A stretch of 51,693 nucleotides of DNA from a virus. The notes below the pieces were generated by a model that did not search any database, was not told where the DNA came from, and saw only the letters and a list, made by a program, of their open reading frames with translations. The position numbers and the translations under genes were made by a program. How positions within the stretch are numbered: the stretch's first letter is position 1; each line of letters starts with the position of its first letter. Positions 4,651-44,187 of the stretch are shown here, one piece after another. The stretch is taken from positions 1 to 51,693 of IMG/VR virus record IMGVR_UViG_3300036393_000028; one strand, 5' to 3'.

Positions 4651-5370
4651 TCAAGCGGCGGCGTTGACTTCGGCGAGCTTCTTCATGTCGGCAAGCGCTT
4701 CGGCGTTGCTGTCATAAAACCGACCCGGATTGATGGGGTGACCGCTCTCGCGATAGATGAGTTGGGCAGCGAGGGCCGTGTTGTGGAACCGTTCCAGCGC
4801 ATATCCGGCCTCGCCAGCGAGGTGGACAACCCAGCCAGCGCGGCAATGCGTCGTGCCGCAGGTATGCCATCTACCCATGTCGAGCGCGCCCGGCAGAGAT
4901 ACGGCCTCAAACACTCGGGCGTGAATGTCTTTGATTTTCGGAATCGGCGGCTGACCGGACGCCACATCCGATGACGGATCGCCCTTCAGGTTCTTTTTGT
5001 TGTAGAGATAGGCGACATTCGAGCAGTCCGAGCAGTCCGAGCAGTCCGAGCAGCGCGAGCAGTCCGAGCAGCCCGAGCAGTCCGAGCAGTCCGAGCAGTC
5101 CGAGCAGCCCGAGCAGCCCGAGCAGTCCGAGCAGTCCGAGCAGCGCGAGCAGCCCGAGCAGCCCGAGCAGTCCGAGCAGCGCGAGCAGCCCGAGCAGCCC
5201 GAGCAGTCCGAGCAGCGCGAGCAGCCCGAGCAGCCCGAGCAGTCCGAGCAGTTAATGCAATCGCGGCAATTTTTCAGGCTGTCGAGCGCGCGCTGGGCCG
5301 CCTCCTTCGAGCCGAAGTATTCAACGGAGCACTTATTGCCGTTGTTGTCGGTGAGCCAAGTGAATGACAT
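4651..5370 (-). CDS. Cys-triplet repeat protein with conserved phage C-terminal domain
   Basis: A 239-aa protein in three parts. Residues about 1-34 are a short N-terminal domain beginning MSFTWLTDNNGNKCSVEYFG. Residues about 34-120 are a tandem repeat in which Cys occurs at every third position (28 in a row, mostly CSD, CSG or CSR). The C-terminal domain (about 140-239) contains RWHTCGTTHCRAGWVV and LIYRESGHP, a form seen at the end of other phage proteins. The ATG at 5370 has GGAG upstream; longer starts lack a ribosome site. The repeat would suit a disulfide- or metal-rich solenoid, but function is unknown. Confidence 0.7.
   Translation of the reverse strand: MSFTWLTDNNGNKCSVEYFGSKEAAQRALDSLKNCRDCINCSDCSGCSGCSRCSDCSGCSGCSRCSDCSGCSGCSRCSDCSDCSGCSGCSDCSDCSDCSGCSDCSRCSDCSDCSDCSNVAYLYNKKNLKGDPSSDVASGQPPIPKIKDIHARVFEAVSLPGALDMGRWHTCGTTHCRAGWVVHLAGEAGYALERFHNTALAAQLIYRESGHPINPGRFYDSNAEALADMKKLAEVNAAA
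5021..5253. repeat. 9-bp tandem repeat encoding Cys-Ser-x triplets
   Basis: About 26 consecutive 9-bp units (plus-strand forms GAGCAGTCC, GAGCAGCCC and GAGCAGCGC) encode CSD, CSG and CSR on the minus strand. The units show a 36-bp higher-order order (D-G-G-R) repeated three times near the protein N-terminal side, then a less regular part. The array is in frame in the minus-strand gene and likely changes length by slippage in multiples of 9 bp. Confidence 0.9.
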
Positions 5371-5396
5371 GGGTTTTCTCCGGTGAGATGTTGCGT

Positions 5397-5753
5397 TCAA
5401 GCGGCGAGGGGATTGGAGGCGGCGGGGGTCACGAGGACAGGGCGCGCCTCGCGGTAGTAGGCGATCTCCTTGCGCACGAAAGCGAGCTGCAAGCGGTAGT
5501 CCTTCGCCGCCCGCATGCACATCACCTCGCTGCGGCGATCCATGGCGGTACGGAAGGCGATGGCGCCTGCGCGGTTGTCGAAGATGCGAGAGAGCAGACG
5601 GAAGCGCTTCATCTGCGCAACGTCGAGATGGTGGAGGCGAAGCTCATCGCACTCGGCATAGGTGCCCCGAGTGATTTGAGCGCCACGGTCGTTGCAGATG
5701 ATGTAGCGGGCGGGGGCTTCGAGGGCTTCGAGACCAGCGGGGGTGAAGGGCAT
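5397..5753 (-). CDS. Hypothetical phage early protein
   Basis: A 118-aa protein starting MPFTPAGLEALEAPARYI, with RGTYAECDELRLHHLD and a basic helical second half. No family is recognised. The ATG at 5753 overlaps the upstream stop (TGATG). It lies in the promoter-proximal part of the leftward operon. Confidence 0.55.
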   Translation of the reverse strand: MPFTPAGLEALEAPARYIICNDRGAQITRGTYAECDELRLHHLDVAQMKRFRLLSRIFDNRAGAIAFRTAMDRRSEVMCMRAAKDYRLQLAFVRKEIAYYREARPVLVTPAASNPLAA

Positions 5754-7375: not shown

Positions 7376-7809
7376 GGAGGAACGAAGCCGGCGTTCAGCA
7401 GGCATTTAATCTCGCTCCCAAGAGCCTCCGCAAGCTCGCCGGCAATCCGGGCTGGATTGATCAGGACATCGTCACCATTCGGAAGATGAATGCTTCTGGT
7501 GCCACCTTGATCGAGATCGGGAAGGCGCTCGGCTGGACCGCCCAAAAGGTCAGGTATCGGATGAAGCGCGACGGCATACCTTTCTGTGGTCGACACGACT
7601 GTGGCGATAAACGGGCCGAGCGGACTTCCCTGGGTCACCGCAAGCACGGTCGCGGCCTTTGGCATGACAGGGCAATCGAGTTGAAGGCGGCGGGCCTGAA
7701 GACTGGGCAGATCGCGGCCATTCTCGGTTTCCCGCCGGACAAGATCAGCAAGTTCTTCTCGAAGCGTCGTATCGCCGACCTATACCCCCGCGAGCGGAGG
7801 TCAGCGTGA
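7372..7809 (+). CDS. Putative HTH transcriptional regulator (two HTH segments)
   Basis: A 145-aa basic protein with two helix-turn-helix-like regions: IVTIRKMNASGATLIEIGKA (about 33-55) and ELKAAGLKTGQIAAILGFPP (about 103-123), each followed by a basic recognition-like helix. It lies second in the rightward operon, the place of CII-like or GcrA-like regulators. The exact role is unknown. It overlaps both neighbours by 4 bp. Confidence 0.6.
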   Translation: MRRNEAGVQQAFNLAPKSLRKLAGNPGWIDQDIVTIRKMNASGATLIEIGKALGWTAQKVRYRMKRDGIPFCGRHDCGDKRAERTSLGHRKHGRGLWHDRAIELKAAGLKTGQIAAILGFPPDKISKFFSKRRIADLYPRERRSA

Positions 7810-9785
7810 CGACACTCGCCCAATACAGCGCTGCGCGCGCCGCATTGGCGGAAGCCTCCCGTGTCGAGCAGGTCATGCATGTCCGCGACGAGGTCGAGCA
7901 CCTGAAGCTCTATGCCCGCCAGATCAAGGACCGCTCCTTGATGGCGGATGCGCTGGAGCTTCAGCTTCGTTGCGAGCGCCGCCTTGGCGAGCTGCTCGTT
8001 GCGGCCAAGGAGCTTGGGCAGATCGCCGAAGGCCGGCGCCGAAAAAACTCTGACAGCGATGCAGAGTTTCCGCGCGTCGTTCTTACCGAGGTCGGTATCG
8101 ACCATCGCCTTTCCTCGAAAGCCCAGAAAGCCGCCAGCCTGTCGCAACAAGCCTTCGACTCCATGGTCGAGCAGGCCCGCAATAGGCTGGTCAGCGGCGC
8201 GGCCATCATCGTGGATATGGCAAAGGCCGAAGACAAAAAGGGTCGCCGCGATGAGAAGGAGGCCGCCCTTGCCGAGCGCATTCGCGCTGCCTCTGCCAAT
8301 GTCGGCAACGGCAAGCTCTATGGCCTGATCCTCGCTGATCCGGCTTGGCGCTTCGAGCCTTACAGCCGCGAAACCGGCATGGATCGCGCGCCCGAGAACC
8401 ACTATCCCACGATGACGCTCGACAAGATCGAAGCGCTTCAGATCCCGGCCGCTGATGACTGTGTCCTGTTCCTGTGGGCCACGGTGCCGATGCTGCCTGA
8501 AGCGCTGGCGGTCATGGGCGCATGGGGCTTCACCTACAAATCTCAGATCGTCTGGGTGAAAGATCGCATCGGCACCGGCTATTGGGCCCGGAACAAGCAT
8601 GAGCTTTTGCTGATCGGAACGAAGGGCAGCATTCCCGCGCCAGTGCCGGGCACCCAGCCGGAAAGCGCCATTCTCGCCCCGGTCGGCCGTCACAGCGAGA
8701 AGCCCGAAGTTTTCCATGAGCTGATCGAGCGTCTTTTCCCGAACATTCCGAAACTGGAAATGTTTTCGCGGCGCGCTCGTCCCGGCTGGGATTCATGGGG
8801 CGCGGAGGCCGACCTTCCTCCCCATGACGAAGACGGCGTGATCATAGACGATGTTCCGGCGATTGGGCCGGCAACGGCGCCCGCTCCCGGCGCAGGCGGC
8901 ATGTCCGCCAAGGGCGATGATATTTCACTCGCAGACCTTCGTGACATGCTCGATTACTCTCCTGAGACGGGTGAATTCCGGTGGAAGGTTGCAAAAGGGC
9001 GAATGCAGCCCGGCGACACGACGGGCAGCGACAACGGTAACGGCTATCTGATCATATGGATCGACGGTCAGCGCTACAGGGCTCATCGCCTCGCATGGCT
9101 CTACCACTACGGCCAATGGCCGGTCGCCGATATTGATCACGTCAACGGCGACCCAACTGACAATCGGATCGAGAATTTGCGTGAATGCACCGACCGCGAA
9201 AACTCGCGCAATCGTGGTCCATGGAAGCGGAATCAATCTGGCCTGAAGGGCGTTCATGCCCAGAACGGCAAGTGGCGCGCGCAAATAACCGCTGACGGCG
9301 AGAAGATCGACCTTGGCACCTTCTCCTCCAGGGAGGAAGCCCACGCGGCCTATCGCGAAGCGGCGCGCAAGTATCATGGCGATTTTGCTCGAACAGCTGC
9401 ATCGCCCATCAAATCCAACGCGAAAGCAACCGAAGTCGAACCCGGAAACGCTGGGGGCGCGGCCCCCGTAAGACACAACAACGACTGGGCTGGTGTTGCG
9501 AGTAGGCTTGCCGGTGGGCGGACACCGGACAGCGAGGAGGGCGGTTCATGCGCTCTGGGCGCGTCGCCTTCCTCGCAGGTTTTAGATGAGCCATCCGGGG
9601 CCGATCCCGGAAGCGCCGTGGAATGCGGCGCACAAGATTCCGAGGTCGCCGCTGTTGCTCCCGCTTCAGCGGCGATAGCGCCGGTTGAGCAGTCGCCCCC
9701 GTTCGACAACGCTCCCGGCGCTCCCCATTCCGGTGAGATGCCGGACATTCCCGCAATTTTTGATCGCAGGGAGAAGGCCGCATGA
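7806..9785 (+). CDS. MT-A70 adenine-N6 DNA methyltransferase fused to HNH-AP2 module
   Basis: A 659-aa protein. Residues 1-160 are a charged helical N-terminal region common before phage MT-A70 enzymes. Residues about 170-335 are the methyltransferase, with catalytic motif ADPAW (178-181), HYPTM, LFLWATVPMLPEAL, the SAM-region phrase HELLLIGTKG and the usual end PGWDSWG. Residues about 372-470 are an HNH endonuclease domain (YRAHRLAW, DIDHVNGDPTDNRIENLREC) and about 475-526 an AP2-like DNA-binding segment (SGLKGVHAQNGKWRAQI). The rest is low complexity. It probably methylates adenine in phage DNA; the endonuclease looks like a homing-type insertion kept in frame. An internal ATG at 8901 could make the nuclease part alone. 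Confidence 0.88.
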   Translation: MTTLAQYSAARAALAEASRVEQVMHVRDEVEHLKLYARQIKDRSLMADALELQLRCERRLGELLVAAKELGQIAEGRRRKNSDSDAEFPRVVLTEVGIDHRLSSKAQKAASLSQQAFDSMVEQARNRLVSGAAIIVDMAKAEDKKGRRDEKEAALAERIRAASANVGNGKLYGLILADPAWRFEPYSRETGMDRAPENHYPTMTLDKIEALQIPAADDCVLFLWATVPMLPEALAVMGAWGFTYKSQIVWVKDRIGTGYWARNKHELLLIGTKGSIPAPVPGTQPESAILAPVGRHSEKPEVFHELIERLFPNIPKLEMFSRRARPGWDSWGAEADLPPHDEDGVIIDDVPAIGPATAPAPGAGGMSAKGDDISLADLRDMLDYSPETGEFRWKVAKGRMQPGDTTGSDNGNGYLIIWIDGQRYRAHRLAWLYHYGQWPVADIDHVNGDPTDNRIENLRECTDRENSRNRGPWKRNQSGLKGVHAQNGKWRAQITADGEKIDLGTFSSREEAHAAYREAARKYHGDFARTAASPIKSNAKATEVEPGNAGGAAPVRHNNDWAGVASRLAGGRTPDSEEGGSCALGASPSSQVLDEPSGADPGSAVECGAQDSEVAAVAPASAAIAPVEQSPPFDNAPGAPHSGEMPDIPAIFDRREKAA

Positions 9786-10769: not shown

Positions 10770-11024
10770 ATGGATCGCTTTCACGTGATTGACGACGCCG
10801 CTGTGATCATTCGCAGCAAGGGCGGGGTGTACAAGCAGGCCAAGGTCTATCGCCGTGGCAGCGACCTCTATGCCGCCCATGCCGGCGGCTTCATCAGGCT
10901 CATGGGTGGCAGGGGCACCTCTCACCCGAGTGTATCCTGGGATGAGATCGAGGCTGGCGATGAGGTCACGGTTGATAAGCTCGGGCGCCTGACATTCCGC
11001 CAGAAACTCGCGATTGCATCATGA
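10770..11024 (+). CDS. Hypothetical phage protein upstream of clamp gene
   Basis: An 84-aa protein (MDRFHVIDDAAVIIRSKGGV at the start, then a Tyr/Arg-rich beta-like stretch). The ribosome site AAGGAGGAAG is 6 nt before ATG 10770 and decides the start. Its stop overlaps the start of the DnaN-like gene (ATGA), so the two are co-translated. Function unknown. Confidence 0.6.
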   Translation: MDRFHVIDDAAVIIRSKGGVYKQAKVYRRGSDLYAAHAGGFIRLMGGRGTSHPSVSWDEIEAGDEVTVDKLGRLTFRQKLAIAS

Positions 11025-12145
11025 GGGGCTCCGTCAATGCGGCCGATCTCGCTGCGGCGATCAAGACCGCTCAGTCCATCATCTTCGCCGGCACGAAGAA
11101 TGAAGCGCTGCGGCATGTCCGACTGAAGGCGATGGCCAGCACCATCGAGGTCGAGGCGACGAACATGGATCAGCATATGCAAGTGCGAGTTCCGGCCGAT
11201 GTGGGCGGGCCGCCCGTCATCGTTGATCCCACTCGACTTCTGATGGCGCTTCAGCCGATCTCGGGCGATGTGACCATATCGTGCACCGAAGGACATATGA
11301 GCGTGTCGGGGAAGGGCGCGCGCTCGCGTCTGGCGCTTCTGCCGGCCACCTCATGGCAGGGCGTCGAGGTGCCAGCGGCCGAAGCTAGCTTCGACGTGAA
11401 GCCCGAAAGCCTGCTCAGCGCCCTCAATGCCGTTCTGCCGGCCGCGTCCACGGATGGCTCTGTCTATTATCTGGCTGGCGTTCATCTGAGATGGGACGGC
11501 CCCGACTTCATCGCGGAGGCCTGCGACCGCTTCGTCGTCCTGGGGAAGGAGATTGAGGCGAGAAAGCCGGCCGCGTGGCCGGGCTCAGTCATCGTGCCCC
11601 GGGAATTCATCCTTGCCGCTGGCAAGCTGCTGGCGAGCGACAGCGCCACGCTATCGGTTACCGAGAATAGGATCGTCCTCGCGACCCCGGCGGGCGTCCT
11701 GGCCTCCAAACTCATCGCCGCGACATATCCCGAGCTGGATCGCGTATGGGACAAGAAATCGGCGCCAGTCCTCCGGGCTGACCGCAAATCGCTGGTCGCG
11801 GTCGTCAAGCTCGCCCACCAGTTCAGCGAATCTGACGGCGAGAAGCTTCGTTCTCTCGTGATCCATGAAGGCGAAGTCATCGCCATGGGGGCGAATGGCG
11901 AGAAATTCCAGGCCGCTTTTGAGTGCGAATACATCAAGGCGCAGGACTATTCGTTTCAGCCCAAGCTCCTGTTGACGGCACTATCGGCGCTCACAAGCGA
12001 AACGGTCGAGCTTACGGACGGCGGGCAGCAGCCGGATACCGTGGTCATGCATGGCGACGGCATCAGGACGTGCGCCGTGAGGCAGAGAAGCCTGCCGCCT
12101 TGGTGGCGTCGTGAGCAGGCGGCCCAGAAAGCCGAGGCCGCATGA
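11021..12145 (+). CDS. DNA polymerase III beta subunit-like sliding clamp
   Basis: A 374-aa protein with the length and three-domain plan of DnaN. It starts with a segment like SVNAADLAAAIKTAQSII, contains VEATNMDQHMQVRVPADVGG (matching the usual ATNLE-type beta strand), and has SLLSALNAVLPAASTD opening the second domain and VVKLAHQFSESDGEKLRSL in the third. It should form a ring that tethers a polymerase to DNA. The C-terminus is extended (PPWWRREQAAQKAEAA). A phage-borne clamp suggests it replaces or competes with the host clamp in phage replication. Confidence 0.75.
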   Translation: MRGSVNAADLAAAIKTAQSIIFAGTKNEALRHVRLKAMASTIEVEATNMDQHMQVRVPADVGGPPVIVDPTRLLMALQPISGDVTISCTEGHMSVSGKGARSRLALLPATSWQGVEVPAAEASFDVKPESLLSALNAVLPAASTDGSVYYLAGVHLRWDGPDFIAEACDRFVVLGKEIEARKPAAWPGSVIVPREFILAAGKLLASDSATLSVTENRIVLATPAGVLASKLIAATYPELDRVWDKKSAPVLRADRKSLVAVVKLAHQFSESDGEKLRSLVIHEGEVIAMGANGEKFQAAFECEYIKAQDYSFQPKLLLTALSALTSETVELTDGGQQPDTVVMHGDGIRTCAVRQRSLPPWWRREQAAQKAEAA

Positions 12146-43354: not shown

Positions 43355-43678
43355 ATGTTGAAATCACCCTACTTCATTGTGGGCGTGGCCATTGGCGCGC
43401 TCGCCGTAATACTCTTGCTCATCGCGCCCAAGTCGTTCGCTCAGGTCGTTCCATGCGGCCCGGAGAAACAGGTCACCAGCGCTCTGACCAACATCGGCGA
43501 AAAGCTGTTTGCCGATGGAACGGCCAAGAGCCCGAATGGAAGCGTGTCAGTGCGGCTGTTCGTCCATCCGACGAAGCGGTCATGGACGCTGCTCATTCTG
43601 CCTGAGCCGGGCAAGGCCTGCATTGGCGCGGTAGGGGAGGGCTTTGAGCCTGCCCGCCTGCCGGGGAGCGACGCATGA
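43355..43678 (+). CDS. Exported or membrane-anchored lysis-region protein
   Basis: A 107-aa protein with an N-terminal hydrophobic segment (YFIVGVAIGALAVILLLIAP) acting as signal or anchor, then a periplasmic beta domain with two Cys (VVPCGPEKQV and GKACIGAVGEG). Function unknown. The HNH gene overlaps its stop (ATGA). Confidence 0.55.
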   Translation: MLKSPYFIVGVAIGALAVILLLIAPKSFAQVVPCGPEKQVTSALTNIGEKLFADGTAKSPNGSVSVRLFVHPTKRSWTLLILPEPGKACIGAVGEGFEPARLPGSDA

Positions 43679-44187
43679 GTGAGCCCCAAGAGGAATGGCG
43701 CCGGATCGCCGCGTTCCCCAACTATGTCATATCGAACCAGGGGAGGGTGAGGCGGGACAGAAGCTCGCCGCGGCATCCAGTGAGCGGACAGCATCTTAGG
43801 CCGCGCGCAGGAAAGAAGGGGCATCTCTACGTGAATCTTGGCGGGACTGGCGCGCCAAAGTCTTGTTACGTGCACCGGCTAGTCGCCACAGCTTTCATCG
43901 GGCCGCCCCCGTCCCCCAAGCATCAAGTCGCCCACTGGGACGGCGACACCTCCAACAATACGGTCGGCAATCTGCGTTGGGCGACCAACAAAGAAAACTC
44001 CCAGGACAGCATTAGGCTTGGCCGAAACCGTCGGCCGCGAGGAGTTGCGGCAGCCAGAGCAAAGCTGACGATCGAGCAAGTCAGGCTGATCCGCGCCGAC
44101 CACAGCATCACGTGCCGGGAGTGGGGCAGACGCCTGAACGTCAGTCACAACATCGTTTCGGCCGCTCGTCGCGGGCTCACCTACTGA
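43675..44187 (+). CDS. HNH homing endonuclease (NUMOD4-HNH)
   Basis: A 170-aa protein: NUMOD4 motif (EEWRRIAAFPNYVISNQGRV), HNH core (YVHRLVATAFIG, VAHWDGDTSNNTVGNLRWAT) and a C-terminal HTH (LTIEQVRLIRADHSITCREW, VSHNIVSAARRG). Freestanding homing endonucleases of this build insert into phage genomes. It sits inside the lysis cassette between a membrane protein and the endolysin without breaking either. Confidence 0.88.
   Translation: MSEPQEEWRRIAAFPNYVISNQGRVRRDRSSPRHPVSGQHLRPRAGKKGHLYVNLGGTGAPKSCYVHRLVATAFIGPPPSPKHQVAHWDGDTSNNTVGNLRWATNKENSQDSIRLGRNRRPRGVAAARAKLTIEQVRLIRADHSITCREWGRRLNVSHNIVSAARRGLTY

Follow-up and report, generated by a model that had tools for sequence, protein, structure and literature searches.

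HNH endonuclease open reading frames (ORFs) inserted in DNA methylases of mycobacteriophages were described by Arsenault and colleagues, in the ShiLan domain and in Pacc40 gp60 (PMC11855218). In these cases the methylase frame stays open through the insertion, an intron or intein signature is missing, and HNH and methylase use different frames; the insertion of Pacc40 has matches among AP2/HNH proteins and is similar to free-standing nucleases encoded beside related methylases (PMC11855218). Nuclease genes also sit at the boundaries of phage genetic exchange (PMC10448857).

Here we analysed a stretch of phage DNA of 51,693 bases (the window), in which an HNH ORF likewise lies within a phage methylase whose frame is open, and for which searches for the signature of an intron or intein were negative. 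However, the window comes from a different phage and encodes a different type of methylase, the HNH lies in a linker near the C-terminus, and, unlike the out-of-frame HNH of ShiLan and Pacc40, it is read in the methylase frame, so that the nuclease forms a domain of the protein. What is new here is an in-frame variant of the HNH insertions already known in phage methylases.

Results

The window is a virus record with genes for an integrase, a repressor, a RecT/Bet-type annealing protein, a sliding clamp and a terminase (PHROGs), and we therefore assign it to a temperate tailed phage. Relatives of its methyltransferase belong mostly to Hyphomicrobiales and other alphaproteobacteria, which suggests a rhizobia-like host from these groups. 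The DNA polymerase sliding clamp (11021-12145; phrog_947, 3e-40) lies in the same gene block as the methyltransferase, downstream of it. Elsewhere in the window, a second, free-standing HNH endonuclease gene with the motif HQVAHWDGDTSNNTVGNLRW was recognised by eye at 43675-44187, and an ORF at 4651-5520 on the reverse strand carries a long run of CSDCSGCSxCS repeats.

The methyltransferase is encoded in a single long ORF on the forward strand with zero internal stops. In this ORF an N-terminal helical region is followed by the MT-A70 domain, a short linker, HNH_3, an AP2-like domain and a low-complexity tail. ORF, Pfam and PHROGs analyses thus bear out the first-pass annotation, which had placed an MT-A70 methyltransferase, a complete HNH-AP2 module and the tail in one frame. 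The parts of the ORF are given below, with L002 denoting the closest relative of the window methyltransferase (IMGVR_UViG_3300010052_000006).

7806-9785, forward: whole fused ORF, GTG to TGA, 659 aa
7806-8234, forward: N-terminal helical region, residues 1-143 (full-length alignment with L002, L003 and L004; phrog_359; model helices)
8319-8807, forward: MT-A70 catalytic domain, residues 172-334, motif DPAW (Pfam PF05063, E 3e-26; METTL3 relatives in the PDB)
8808-8900, forward: methyltransferase end and first part of the linker (LPPHDEDGVII, then low complexity), common with L002 to about 8848
8901-9404, forward: inserted HNH-AP2 module, residues 366-533 (missing in L002; ends fit free-standing homologues)
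8901-8903, forward: candidate internal start for a nuclease-only product (aligns with native starts; anti-SD duplex -5.8 kcal/mol)
9075-9209, forward: HNH_3 nuclease motif with D-H, N and N kept (Pfam PF13392; alignments)
9249-9380, forward: AP2-like DNA-binding domain (Pfam, PDB phmmer, Foldseek)
9405-9785, forward: methyltransferase low-complexity tail and C-terminal peptide EMPDIPAIFDRREKAA (same tail in HNH-free L002)

The MT-A70 match reached 92.7 bits against a curated Pfam cut-off of 23.9, and the DNA methyltransferase family phrog_359 covered residues 31-338 (4e-63). HNH_3 was matched at residues 424-468 (E 2e-18), and the HNH endonuclease family phrog_99 over residues 368-541 (2e-71). 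The AP2 match at residues 482-525 (E 2.6e-4) is under Pfam's own cut-off, but two further comparisons clearly support the domain: plant AP2 domains were matched at 3e-6 (PDB phmmer), and in the predicted model the domain resembles the TEM1 AP2 domain (about 1 Å over 47 columns, 45% identity; Foldseek). A search of NCBIfam found nothing. The full-length AlphaFold model, built from 4 sequences, was poor (mean pLDDT 48), and our conclusions are not based on it.

In its catalytic domain and N-terminal helical region the protein resembles phage MT-A70 DNA adenine methyltransferases. The helical region, which aligns over its full length with L002 and two further relatives (L003 and L004), was found from these alignments to go with the phage MT-A70 type of the window, and the ending LPPHD..xG.II is common to some MT-A70 relatives. 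What sets the window protein apart from the family is the nuclease domain in its linker and the catalytic motif DPAW in place of the usual DPPW. Among 162 distinct MT-A70 cores, a pattern-based sample that includes the window and is not a census, DPPW was present in 115 and DPAW in 12, namely the window and 11 other relatives. The module, in turn, has the features of HNH-AP2 phage homing endonucleases (PHROG 99; 'IPA-HNH', PMC10448857), with an N-terminal HNH_3, a C-terminal AP2, about 165 aa and the D-H/N/N residues; unlike these normally free-standing enzymes, it is fused in frame and its stop codon is gone.

Comparison with L002 shows where the module lies. Identity between the two methyltransferases reaches 96% over the catalytic core and 87% over the N-terminal region, and since 49 of the 57 core differences fall at third codon positions, the methyltransferase appears to be under selection as a protein. 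Past the core, the likeness runs to about 8848, after which the sequences differ: in L002 the frame stays open across another linker, some 51 residues long, and then enters the same tail, with the HNH module missing. Methyltransferase and tail thus occur together in L002 with no nuclease between them, from which it follows that the tail is part of the methyltransferase and that the nuclease entered the linker. The first-pass annotation was therefore right that a low-complexity tail is present, but the tail is not a piece of the insertion; and its suggestion of a simple 3' insertion of a homing gene holds as to the insertion but not as to the position, which is between methyltransferase and tail, inside the linker. 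L002 does not offer a clean empty site for comparison, as 51 different residues stand in place of the module and its flank, and this counts against the insertion reading. At another place, L002 does carry an HNH-AP2 gene that stands alone (identity about 41%).

Over the 13.7 kb of L002 that was compared, the stretch 7775-9785 of the window (L002 5970-7674) is the sole long one with an identity of about 89% or more; around the methyltransferase gene the two sequences are mostly unlike or much more weakly similar. This isolated similarity suggests that the methyltransferase gene was exchanged between phages as a unit, as would be expected in the vicinity of homing nucleases (PMC10448857).

Between the window and L002, the tail DNA (9405-9640) has an identity of about 97% and few changes at third positions, as compared with about 90%, mostly third-position changes, for the methyltransferase DNA; the tail may have been exchanged recently, or its DNA may be constrained. 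A structured RNA in this stretch of about 230 nt was considered and rejected: it folds well on the sense strand (z -3.2), but against a background of 236-nt windows across the phage, with a mean z of -0.6 (sd 1.35), a score of -2.9 is near the 5th percentile. The tail was also rejected as a repeat or mobile sequence. Apart from L002, it was found in no plasmids, phages, viral contigs or 397 genomes of one bacterial order, other weak matches of 20-50 nt being attributable to chance.

The insertion was not seen again. An in-frame HNH was present in 1 of the 162 cores drawn from viral contigs, bacterial genomes and phage records, this one being the window itself; the other 161, the closest relative L002 among them, are without HNH, the pattern that the first-pass annotation had named as the mark of a passenger. 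Of the 162 proteins, 93 end within 12 residues past the core and 19, the window among them, extend more than 50 residues beyond it. Other extensions occur: L117 has a C-terminal HTH_58 domain (2e-11), L208 and L217 have weaker helix-turn-helix matches, and by eye the MT-A70 frame of L236 seems to continue into a cytosine methyltransferase.

When the methyltransferase-plus-HNH stretch was used as a tblastn query, no MT-A70/HNH fusion was found in 50,697 phage and 72,556 plasmid records. HNH-AP2 is of the homing-type phage HNH family, and 3,382 phage records matched the query by either domain. Two phage records, Klebsiella phage GP-1 and Vibrio phage D4, covered at least 80% of the query; they were rejected as recurrent fusions, since their annotation gives separate genes, with the HNH or AP2 just upstream. 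In L007 a separate HNH-AP2 gene (1267-1797) shares four bases with the end of the MT-A70 gene, possibly a step towards fusion, and in L225 an HNH-AP2 gene lies about 269 bases downstream of the methyltransferase gene. Close neighbourhood of HNH-AP2 and MT-A70 genes therefore recurs in a few phages (L007, L225, GP-1 and D4), but the fusion does not. The module has the patchy presence of its family, being missing in L002 and in every other relative examined. That no second phage with the same insertion was found among these sequences counts against taking its mobility as shown.

The limits of the module coincide with those of free-standing genes. Many free-standing relatives have start codons 0 to +8 codons from Met366, the residue encoded by ATG 8901, and the nearest ones (L224, L226, L229, L233 and L012) stop within a few residues of (H)GEFAR; the matching place in the window reads YHGDFARTAASP, whereupon the tail joins. 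As these ends match free-standing starts and stops, the inserted piece is, to the precision with which its limits can be located, an entire free-standing HNH-AP2 ORF from first to last codon, without the stop codon. Its GC content at third codon positions (GC3), 0.65, is lower than that of the methyltransferase (0.74-0.76), which hints mildly at a separate origin. The HNH residues D79, H80, N88 and N92 of the module, invariant across 9-10 relatives, are all present in the window, and for this reason the nuclease looks intact.

The first-pass annotation had further proposed that ATG 8901 could release the nuclease alone, and this codon is indeed in frame. Its Shine-Dalgarno match ranks second of 19 in-frame internal ATG/GTG codons, and its anti-SD duplex is average, about as strong as at many genuine starts in the window. 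A nuclease-only start at this position is plausible, given this average Shine-Dalgarno and its coincidence with the native start of free-standing homologues.

Some related MT-A70 proteins with low-complexity tails end in or contain DIPAFLRR, a peptide like the C-terminal peptide of FtsZ; in the three bacteria checked, FtsZ, assigned by eye from its sequence, ends in LEIPAFLRRQAN. The MT-A70 C-terminal regions with the FtsZ-like motif are as follows.

L066, L067, L069, L178, L181, L247, L250, L251: FtsZ-like motif in the C-terminal region
Window, 9735-9782: FtsZ-like motif in the C-terminal region

The pattern [ILV]PxFL[RK] occurs in the last 60 residues of 5 of 97 MT-A70 frames versus 0 of 7,891 other frames, a contrast whose P value serves as a guide only, since the pattern was noticed in the same data before counting. 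Scanning viral contigs for DIPAFLRR gave 8 contigs, three of which encode MT-A70 proteins reading DGLDIPAFLRR; in the other five (L248, L249, L252, L253 and L254) it lies in unrelated phage proteins, mostly in low-complexity sequence or near the C-terminus. The end of the window protein, EMPDIPAIFDRREKAA, has a weaker likeness to the FtsZ peptide. These MT-A70 tail peptides may mimic FtsZ.

Discussion

We propose that the HNH-AP2 ORF is probably a passenger homing gene, inserted in frame in the methyltransferase linker and spreading by homing. A complete homing-endonuclease ORF that had lost its stop codon would have landed in a disordered linker, in frame at both ends. Such a linker would tolerate an extra domain while the methyltransferase still worked, and the nuclease would be made as a fused domain, from ATG 8901, or both. 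It would then cut methyltransferase alleles without the insertion, and recombination would copy the insertion into the cut alleles, as happens with homing genes that stand alone. That methylation and cleavage are combined on one chain would be incidental. The proposal draws on what can be read in the sequences themselves: modules in one frame, a nuclease missing in L002, ends of the free-standing type and nuclease residues kept. The frame kept at both junctions and the retained tail would also fit a functional fusion.

The best rival, which we consider unlikely, is that the module was taken over as a DNA-binding domain that targets the methyltransferase, with cutting unimportant or lost. AP2 is a DNA-binding fold, both junctions are in frame, and the helix-turn-helix domains behind the core in L117 and, more weakly, in L208 and L217 offer a parallel. 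However, every invariant HNH residue is kept, and the module is fused to no other MT-A70 among the 162 cores or in the phage and plasmid records.

That MT-A70 and HNH-AP2 work together in a bifunctional phage protein is improbable. If it were true, methylation might, for example, guard the genome that carries the insertion, and the nuclease would cut competitor phages that are unmethylated or alleles free of the insertion. Still less probable is a one-polypeptide modification-cleavage (restriction-modification-like) or self-guarding enzyme. Like single-chain type IIG restriction-modification enzymes, the window protein joins a methyltransferase and an apparently intact nuclease in one polypeptide; unlike them, its fusion is without recurrence and nothing points to a common recognition site. 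Type IIG enzymes carry a usual restriction nuclease, whereas that of the window belongs to the homing-type phage HNH family, and PADLOC detects the methyltransferase part alone. Recurrence would be expected of such an enzyme; because the pairing does not recur (1 of 162 cores, 0 phage or plasmid records), the self-guarding element and the one-polypeptide system, both raised in the first-pass annotation, are left without support.

An assembly chimera could be suspected in a metagenomic contig from a public collection, all the more as a second copy of the fusion is not known and the junctions are seen in one sequence; it is very unlikely, because the flanks on both sides match the single relative L002 in the same order and the three modules share a frame without a stop. 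Least probable of all is a self-splicing intron or intein with a homing endonuclease, for although group I introns commonly carry HNH endonucleases and the fold of the tail is somewhat more stable than that of shuffled sequences (z -3.2), there were zero Rfam intron matches at gathering or up to E 10, a Hint splicing domain or intein domain is missing among the Pfam matches, the folding score is unexceptional for this genome, and the frame is open throughout.

As a passenger homing gene, the HNH-AP2 module would mean that a homing gene can persist in another phage gene by simple in-frame insertion into a linker that tolerates it, with no need for splicing. Taken with the out-of-frame insertions of ShiLan and Pacc40, it suggests that HNH nucleases have repeatedly settled in phage methylases, and such insertions would offer a possible route by which methyltransferases gain new DNA-binding or nuclease domains.
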